Shown: positions 39,629-42,356 of the stretch, one piece after another
Position numbering within the stretch: position 1 is the first letter of the stretch
How the letters are laid out: every line of letters begins with the position of its first letter
Assembly (NCBI GenBank): GCA_913047675.1
Contig: CAJWTO010000006.1
Coordinates: forward strand, 1-50,496
From: an uncultured Pseudomonadota bacterium
GTDB taxonomy: Bacteria; Pseudomonadota; Gammaproteobacteria; Ga0077536
Length of the DNA: 50,496 bases
Direction of reading: 5' to 3'
The notes under the pieces: model-generated
The model's input: only the letters and a program-made list of their open reading frames with translations
Database searches by the model: none
What the model was told of the DNA's origin: nothing
Position numbers and translations under genes: made by a program

Positions 39629-40573
39629 ATGTCGGTAAGGTTCGCTTTCGCCTCGCACACACCATTAAAAGACTATTGTGAGGTCGCGCCCGCCGTTTCG
39701 GAATCTGTAGAATCAGCACATATTGACTTGAGAAACTGGGTTGATGAATATCAGCCCGAGCTTGTAATTGCGATAGGTCCTGATCATTTTAATGGCTTCT
39801 TTTACGGACTGATGCCTTCTTTCTGCGTGGGTATGTCGACCGAGGCAGTCGGAGACTGGAATACGCCTCAGGGTGAACTTCCATCGAGCGAGGAGTTGGC
39901 TACTAAATTATTAGCTTATAGTCATAGGTCGGGCGTTGACCTAGCTTATTCTCACAATATGCGAGTAGATCACGGGATTAGTCAGTTTCTTCATGAACTT
40001 TTTGAGTGGCGGATGTTGCCTCCAATCATACCCATATTTGTAAATTGTGCTGCTGCTCCGAGGCCTCCTCTGGCGAGGGTACTTGAGTTGGGACGTATAA
40101 TCGGACAATTTGCTAGAGCTCAAAGTCTTAGAGTGTTAGTAACTGCTTCGGGTGGTTTATCTCATGATCCGCCGATTCCTTCGATAACGACTGCGAGTGG
40201 TAAGCTAAGAGAACGATTGATTAAAGGCGGTGACTTGAGCGCAGAAGCAAGACAAGCAAGACAAGAAATTGTCGTTCAGGAGGCTATGAAGCAGAGACAG
40301 GGAGAAAGTTTGCGACTTCCACTTAACCCGGAATGGGATCGGACTTTTATCAATAATCTGCAGCGTTTTGACTTTGACTCTCTCTTGTCACTGAGTGACG
40401 AAGATATCACCAGTGCCGCAGGATGCGGAGCACATGAAATTAGGGCATGGCTGACGGGAGCGTCCGCCGCGAAAGAATGTGGAATAACCAAGCTAGACTT
40501 ATTGCTTTATTTGCCTATTCCAGAGTGGGTCGCGGGCTACGGGATCATGCGCGGACAGATTATGAAGGATTAA
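39629..40573 (+). CDS. Class III extradiol dioxygenase (MhpB-like)
   Basis: A 314-aa LigB-superfamily non-haem Fe(II) enzyme similar in length to 2,3-dihydroxyphenylpropionate 1,2-dioxygenase. Iron/catalytic residues are recognisable: PDHFNGF near 51-57, DHGIS with His115 and LSHD with His179; His115 and His179 fall at the positions I recall as catalytic in E. coli MhpB. It opens a catechol ring beside the diol. It ends the aromatic operon, 12 bp tail-to-tail from the selenoprotein gene. The substrate is a substituted catechol not determined by sequence. Confidence 0.9.
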   Translation: MSVRFAFASHTPLKDYCEVAPAVSESVESAHIDLRNWVDEYQPELVIAIGPDHFNGFFYGLMPSFCVGMSTEAVGDWNTPQGELPSSEELATKLLAYSHRSGVDLAYSHNMRVDHGISQFLHELFEWRMLPPIIPIFVNCAAAPRPPLARVLELGRIIGQFARAQSLRVLVTASGGLSHDPPIPSITTASGKLRERLIKGGDLSAEARQARQEIVVQEAMKQRQGESLRLPLNPEWDRTFINNLQRFDFDSLLSLSDEDITSAAGCGAHEIRAWLTGASAAKECGITKLDLLLYLPIPEWVAGYGIMRGQIMKD

Positions 40574-40585
40574 GCGGAAGTTCTC

Positions 40586-40936
40586 TCAAAACTGGCTTAA
40601 AAGTACTTTACTATAACAATCCTCATTATACCCCACTAGTATTTGGTCTTTGAAGACAAGTGTTGGCGCTCTTAGGTTACCGGTAGGTCCAAGCATATTA
40701 TCAATTGCTTCGTCTGAAACGTTTTTTCCGCCGGTGAACGCCATGATCTTTTTACCTTTAGCAACAGTGATTTTTTTGGCAGTCGAAGCCAGTTTTTTTG
40801 CAGCATCTTTTCCCAATTTGCGAGAAGCAGGCACTATTTCTTGCGCTGTTAATTTTTTTGCCTCCATAAACTTGGAAGCTTTCTCGCAGGTAGTTCATCC
40901 CTTCCTATAGTAATACCAGTTAATTAAATTGCTCAT
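40586..40936 (-). CDS. ArsC-family selenoprotein (UGA read as Sec14)
   Basis: The track calls only 40586-40867, but the frame continues upstream through one TGA (40897-40895) to an ATG at 40936. The 116-residue product begins MSNLINWYYYRKGUTTCEK, giving a U14-x-x-C17 redox pair right after a thioredoxin-like strand; the C-terminal GPTGNLRAPTLVF with the cis-Pro is a fold hallmark. I recall a family annotated as ArsC-like (seleno)proteins with a similar (C/U)xxC start and the same NLRAPT block. A SECIS-type hairpin follows the TGA. Only a weak ribosome binding site is visible. Without Sec the caller's start would lack the active site. A redox role is inferred; selA/B/C/D are not in the window. 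Confidence 0.85.
40860..40879 (-). promoter_or_regulatory. Bacterial SECIS element for the selenoprotein
   Basis: In the transcript, GCTTCCA pairs with TGGAGGC (seven pairs, one of them G-U) around the loop AGTTTA. The loop starts 22 nt after the UGA and has G as its second base, both inside the published bacterial SECIS consensus (loop 16-37 nt after UGA, G among the first two loop bases). The hairpin contains the false ATG used by the ORF track. Confidence 0.75.
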
Positions 40937-41117
40937 AGTTTAATTTTAGCCTGTTACTGAAATTTATCTGCCATATTCTACTTAGAGTTAATATAATGTA
41001 AATTAAATTCGACGCTGAGGATTCGATTAGGGGCTATATTTATGGCGTCACCGAATCCCAATAATTTAATTAATGTTAGATTTTCATATTTAGAGCGCGT
41101 GAAAGGGGATGTTAAAA

Positions 41118-42356
41118 ATGAGACAGGTGCATATAGCCGGCGTTGGGATGACTAATTTTGGTAAATTCTTAGATAGAAGTTTAAAGGATTTGACCGGAGA
41201 TGCTTTAAAGGATGTTTTGTCTGACGCGGGCTGCGATGCCACAGATATCGAGGCTGCTTTTTTTGGAAATTGTGTCCAAGGCCACATGGAAGGTCAAGAT
41301 ATGGTGCGAGGCGAAATAGCGCTTCGACCTTTTGGTGTTTCTGGTGTTCCAATCGTCAACGTCGAAAATGCTTGCGCTACATCGAGTACTGCTTTTCATA
41401 TGGCCGTAAATTATGTGAAATCTGGCGCAGCTGACATTGTGTTAGCAATAGGTGTTGAAAAGATGTTCTCTGAAGATAAGGCGAGAATGTTTAGCGCCTT
41501 TGATGGCGCGTGGGATGTGCACGAAGTGGAACAGAGCGTCGAACGGTTCGATGGGATGGCCGAAGGAGTAGAGATACCTGAAGGCACCACCTCGCCGAGA
41601 CCGTACAGTGTGTTTATGGACATATACGCTGGATTTTGTCGGATGCACATGAAAGAGTTTGGCACCACTCAAGAGCAGCTAGCGATCATCGCGTCGAAAA
41701 ATCATTTACATTCTGTACATAACACTCGGTCGCAATATAACAAGGCCTTTACTGTAGAAGAAGTTTTGGCGGCGGCGCCAATAACTTACCCGTTGACACT
41801 GCCTATGTGCTCCCCTGTGAGTGATGGAGCTGCTGCTGCAATAGTTTGTAGTCACGAAGGTCTGAAAAAATTAAAAGGTCGTACCGATCGGAATGTGAAA
41901 GTTCTTAGTAGCGTACTGCGAGCGGGTAGCGATAGAGAGTTGCGTGATTTTGAGCAGCATGCAAGTAAGTTAGCTGCTATGACCGCTTACGATCAAGCAG
42001 GTGTTGGCCCGGAGGATGTTGATGTCGCTGAGGTGCATGATGCGACAGCGATGGGCGAGGTGATGGAAGTAGAGGCTTTAGGCTTGTGCGAGCTAGGCGG
42101 GGGAGGACCGATGGCACAAGCGGGTGATAGCACCCTCGGGGGACGAGTTCCTGTTAATCCGTCTGGTGGTCTTGAGTCGAAAGGTCATCCGATAGGAGCC
42201 ACCGGATTAGGACAGATTTTTGAGCTGGTTTGTCAGCTTCGGGGTGAGTCTGACGCACGACAGGTCGAAGGTGCGCGAGTAGGTATCGCGCAAAATGGCG
42301 GTGGTATTGTCGGGATCGAAGAGGCAGTGACCTGTATTACGTTATTAGGCACATAG
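41118..42356 (+). CDS. SCP-x-like thiolase (lipid-transfer/acetyltransferase type)
   Basis: A thiolase-superfamily protein of the SCP-x type, predicted to cleave or form a 3-ketoacyl-CoA bond. The Cys nucleophile is in VENACATSSTAFHMA, AEVHDATAMGEVMEVEALG carries the His-Asp block typical of this subgroup, and KGHPIGATGLGQ the catalytic His. The usual second Cys near the C-terminus is absent (QNGGGIVG), also usual here. The track starts at 41109, but AAAGGGGA lies eight bases before the ATG at 41118, so I choose that (412 aa). It opens the seven-gene operon with the kinase and biotin genes. Confidence 0.88.
   Translation: MRQVHIAGVGMTNFGKFLDRSLKDLTGDALKDVLSDAGCDATDIEAAFFGNCVQGHMEGQDMVRGEIALRPFGVSGVPIVNVENACATSSTAFHMAVNYVKSGAADIVLAIGVEKMFSEDKARMFSAFDGAWDVHEVEQSVERFDGMAEGVEIPEGTTSPRPYSVFMDIYAGFCRMHMKEFGTTQEQLAIIASKNHLHSVHNTRSQYNKAFTVEEVLAAAPITYPLTLPMCSPVSDGAAAAIVCSHEGLKKLKGRTDRNVKVLSSVLRAGSDRELRDFEQHASKLAAMTAYDQAGVGPEDVDVAEVHDATAMGEVMEVEALGLCELGGGGPMAQAGDSTLGGRVPVNPSGGLESKGHPIGATGLGQIFELVCQLRGESDARQVEGARVGIAQNGGGIVGIEEAVTCITLLGT

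Follow-up and report, generated by a model that had tools for sequence, protein, structure and literature searches.

We found in the window, by which we mean the whole 50,496-nucleotide stretch of DNA analysed here, a gene of the NCBIfam family NF041106 (ArsC_rel_Se_1), the start and active site of which are missed by mechanical gene calling. Its product is, very probably, a small thioredoxin-fold selenoprotein of the ArsC/Spx superfamily, probably cytoplasmic, in which the UGA at codon 14 would be decoded as selenocysteine (Sec) via SelB and a UxxC motif would most likely form the redox centre. The sequence comparisons confirm the apparently truncated gene as one predicted to encode a small redox protein, its UGA being read through as selenocysteine. 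The gene, its parts and its two flanking neighbours are:

40586..40936, minus strand: ArsC/Spx-related selenoprotein gene (NF041106), ATG at 40936..40934 and terminal TGA at 40588..40586 (from translation, family profile and aligned homologs)
40895..40897, minus strand: in-frame UGA, codon 14, predicted selenocysteine at position 1 of the U-T-T-C (UxxC) active site (from the sequence, and from a TGA at the same place in 15 of 15 members above the cut-off)
40860..40879, minus strand: predicted bacterial SECIS hairpin, 7 bp with the 6-nt loop AGUUUA (from the fold, the constraints of PMC13188914 and pairing across 12 sequences)
40586..40867, minus strand: mechanical ORF call of 93 aa from an internal ATG, an artefact without the active site (homologs have a longer N-terminus)
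39629..40573, strand opposite to the selenoprotein gene: LigB-type dioxygenase, flanking neighbour
41109..42356, strand opposite to the selenoprotein gene: thiolase-like gene, flanking neighbour

Translated with TGA as U, positions 40936..40586 of the minus strand give a frame of 117 codons (116 residues and the stop) with a single in-frame UGA, reading MSNLINWYYYRKG-U-TTC...SQF-stop; the protein with Sec is MSNLINWYYYRKGUTTCEKASKFMEAKKLTAQEIVPASRKLGKDAAKKLASTAKKITVAKGKKIMAFTGGKNVSDEAIDNMLGPTGNLRAPTLVFKDQILVGYNEDCYSKVLLSQF. The plus strand of 40586..40936 contains several stops. The original prediction, which gave no strand, described a frame running upstream of the ORF call through one TGA to an ATG, and the minus strand has exactly this arrangement (TGA 40897..40895, ATG 40936..40934); it was also right that the ORF call begins inside a hairpin and loses the active site, the internal ATG being at 40867 and the hairpin at 40879..40860. 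In a motif screen of the whole window, 40586..40936 is the only one among the frames listed that combines UxxC with likeness to a known protein family.

The protein (given to the programs with Cys for Sec) scores 104.5 bits against NF041106, described as 'ArsC family (seleno)protein', for which the curated cut-off is 85; the original prediction had proposed an ArsC-family protein. The match extends over residues 5–108 of the protein and positions 1–107 of the 107 in the profile; starting at residue 5, it begins upstream of the UGA and thus includes nine residues before it. Members of this family are expected to open the xxC active site with Sec or Cys, and here that place is taken by the UGA at codon 14 (UTTC). 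We collected 15 genes above the NF041106 cut-off from 14 of the 36 genomes of the taxonomic family (the order-level sample consists of the same 36 genomes), one genome having two. All 15, which span six genera, have exactly one internal TGA, found by inspection to lie in RKG-U-(T/A)xC, and all 13 members that were aligned match NF041106. The original prediction had been staked on homologs that begin upstream of the internal Met, and they do: an N-terminal WYYFRKG-U-TSC is held in common, with the TGA at the same place in 15 out of 15. The alignment shows little or no variation in the N-terminal WYY(F/Y)RKG and in the MLGPTGNLRAPT stretch; the window protein is 45–61% identical to the 12 aligned homologs, and one near-identical relative (97%) was found in a scan of genome contigs. 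The same-genus genome G002 carries two NF041106 copies (L022 and L038), both with the TGA and in different contexts.

Against the main reading, no Cys-containing ortholog above the NF041106 cut-off was retrieved, and a search of 399 genomes of the phylum for such orthologs gave no further member at E <= 1e-12. Weaker matches in other families (22–30 bits) have no internal stop and were rejected as general proteins of the ArsC/Spx type. Nothing in phage records matched the region, and no relative of the protein turned up among viral contigs.

Selenocysteine machinery was the other point on which the prediction had been staked, and the genome of the window, searched family by family, has selA, selB, selC and selD. 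Three of these genes are in a row on contig C58, namely selA (565 bits), selB (419 bits) and the tRNA-Sec gene (70 bits; typed by ARAGORN as Sec, anticodon UCA), and selD is on contig C17 (291 bits). A second tRNA-Sec match (L008) was rejected, being a tRNA-Ser(UGA) according to ARAGORN. Of the 14 genomes carrying the ArsC-type gene 13 have tRNA-Sec or selB over the cut-off: tRNA-Sec was found in 12 of the 13 scanned for it (the exception is G002, 87% complete), and the fourteenth genome, G025, lay outside the tRNA-Sec scan but its selB exceeds the cut-off. Within the taxonomic family, the scan found no tRNA-Sec in two genomes, G006 (62% complete) and G013, neither of which carries the NF041106 gene. 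By this distribution of tRNA-Sec and selB, NF041106 above the cut-off is never found in a genome shown to be both Sec-negative and near-complete. Many Sec-decoding relatives have no NF041106 gene.

Contig C17 has two further features around selD. The adjoining region L015:863–1390 (plus strand) contains a Prx/Trx-like frame (...FRGHWUPYCNAEL...) with UxxC and one internal TGA, and its ORF call, too, begins past the active site; the frame has a thioredoxin/peroxiredoxin-type match and is likely a second selenoprotein, which speaks in favour of the main reading. In a 744-aa frame (L015:1396–3630, minus strand), selD makes up the C-terminal half, and the N-terminal half looks like an FAD/NAD-dependent NADH dehydrogenase.

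The hairpin agrees with the bacterial SECIS consensus, as predicted. Counted from the UGA, the first 50 nt fold at minimum energy into one hairpin, GCUUCCA-AGUUUA-UGGAGGC (7 bp, 6-nt loop); its second loop base is G, the UGA and the loop are 22 nt apart, and the energy is -10.3 kcal/mol (z = -2.3 versus shuffles). Loop, stem, G, spacing and MFE are all within the limits listed in PMC13188914 (loop of 3–9 nt, stem of 4–16 bp, G at loop position 1 or 2, spacing of 16–37 nt, MFE <= -7.5). By itself the hairpin is weak evidence, because a comparable one follows 24 of the 1776 TGA triplets counted in all frames and on both strands of the window. Across 12 distinct sequences 90.5% of the cells of the seven-pair stem are paired, versus 32–38% with slid partners; since four of the pairs are invariant, a single pair shows changes in both partners and an inner pair is lost in five of the 12 sequences, covariation gives weak support. 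The predicted fold of the SECIS region differs in one relative (L020), and an Rfam scan of the region returned chance-level matches only, none of them to a SECIS family. Synonymous codon usage varies unusually little across the SECIS region: the loop G is the third base of the Lys codon at +8, and all 10 sequences that encode Lys at this site use AAG (against 23 AAG and 20 AAA for four further conserved Lys positions), and the Ser at +2 is AGC in nine out of nine. This adds some support, as a raw count in which kinship is ignored. What carries the case is the match of the protein to its family, together with the conserved TGA and the Sec genes, rather than the hairpin.

AlphaFold, run on the 13-sequence alignment, gave a confident model with a pLDDT of 91.5 and a pTM of 0.83. 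Its top PDB match by Foldseek is Spx (6gho, E 7e-4; a moderate match, TM about 0.5), followed by other Spx and ArsC-related proteins and glutaredoxins, and a sequence search against structures agrees with this fold (2m46, a putative arsenate reductase, E 3.7e-5, and Spx). From the sequence evidence we infer that selenocysteine would be inserted at UGA 14 by SelB and Sec-tRNA(Sec), with the hairpin directly 3' of the UGA as guide, and that the UxxC at the start of helix 1 would most likely be the redox centre: the selenolate would attack a disulfide or an oxidised substrate, the resulting adduct would be resolved as a selenenylsulfide by the Cys three positions further along, and this selenenylsulfide would then be reduced by a cellular thiol or thioredoxin system. 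The original prediction described the function of the family as not established, and our literature searches agree with it in having found no published function. A thiol/disulfide oxidoreductase with a UxxC centre seems to us likelier than an arsenate reductase, because UxxC with a resolving Cys suits thiol/disulfide exchange better than single-thiol arsenate reduction, and because a conventional ArsC-like gene is present separately in the genome.

It is unlikely that the protein is an Spx-like redox sensor binding RNA polymerase. Outside its own family, its closest relatives by structure and by HMM are Spx and MgsR (TIGR01617, E 4e-8; 6gho and 3gfk), with the same fold and a CxxC at the equivalent position; the protein, however, is far under the cut-offs of the Spx models (33.5 bits vs 75.05 for TIGR01617, and 21 vs 152), identity is about 20%, and Spx/MgsR have Cys where the window protein has Sec. 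Strict arsenate reduction, with Sec as the arsenate nucleophile, is quite improbable. Surveys call the family 'arsenate reductase-like', the similarity to 2m46 points the same way, and there is a weak similarity to Pfam ArsC (PF03960, 18.1 bits, cut-off 24); but ArsC proteins (TIGR00014, PF03960), which belong to the same superfamily, have CxxS where the window protein has UxxC, ArsC form 1 has UxxS, and the protein is below the ArsC cut-off, TIGR00014 being absent among its matches at E <= 1. Further against this reading, a separate ArsC-like gene with C-S-K-S is found on contig C37 (its protein scores 86.5 bits with TIGR00014, below the cut-off of 106), and there are no ars genes among the neighbours examined.

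The genes around the thiol/disulfide oxidoreductase that we favour could suggest a more specialised role. Beyond the two flanking genes are an alpha/beta hydrolase and an HpaB-like monooxygenase. The segment 33649–46042 of the window looks, by gene content, like an aromatic-compound degradation cluster: it has genes for an AFOR-type aldehyde ferredoxin oxidoreductase, a luciferase-like monooxygenase, the HpaB-like monooxygenase, the alpha/beta hydrolase and the 3-carboxyethylcatechol-dioxygenase-like LigB, as well as thiolase-like, PEP-utilising and biotin carboxylase genes. That the selenoprotein is specialised for this cluster, where it could keep oxygen-dependent enzymes (the LigB-type extradiol dioxygenase, the HpaB-like monooxygenase) reduced, is very doubtful. 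Thiolase or LigB genes are near eight of the 15 homologs (in regions of 5–17 kb), half or more of the eight being from the same genus, and the remaining homologs have different neighbours; the placement between thiolase-like and LigB-type genes is thus found in part of the taxonomic family. The link is weak, as the gene is on the strand opposite to its neighbours and is located elsewhere in other genera. The reading of the UGA as an ordinary stop or a sequencing error, in a pseudogene or a gene starting at the internal Met, gains something from the comparable hairpins at other TGAs of the window but can practically be set aside, given the same TGA in 15 genes of six genera, the conserved residues upstream of the UGA and the full Sec machinery of the genome.

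NF041106, with its UxxC, is catalogued as a selenoprotein family in a 2026 review (PMC13188914), and the window protein differs from it in nothing of substance: the full-length match, UxxC, length and ArsC/Spx relationship are the same. The 2008 Global Ocean Sampling selenoproteome described 'Arsenate reductase 2' (cd03032, UxxC), of which it reported 42 sequences with Sec and 238 with Cys (PMC2398784), and an 'Arsenate reductase-like protein' with UxxC is also listed in PMC9312934. 'Arsenate reductase 2' has the same ArsC/Spx-type domain and UxxC; it is probably the same family as NF041106, judging by motif, by domain and by citation, as PMC13188914 cites its reference 61 for the NF041106 row, and that reference appears to be PMC2398784. 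Of the claim of a 'hidden selenoprotein', the part that stands is that naive ORF calling misses the gene; since the family is already in databases and published surveys, it is hidden in that sense only, and the result is a sound correction of a gene call, not a discovery. Among the genomes of the class and phylum sampled, NF041106 above the cut-off is found in only one taxonomic family, in Sec-decoding bacteria, and the gene described here adds a well-supported member to this catalogued, functionally uncharacterised selenoprotein family.
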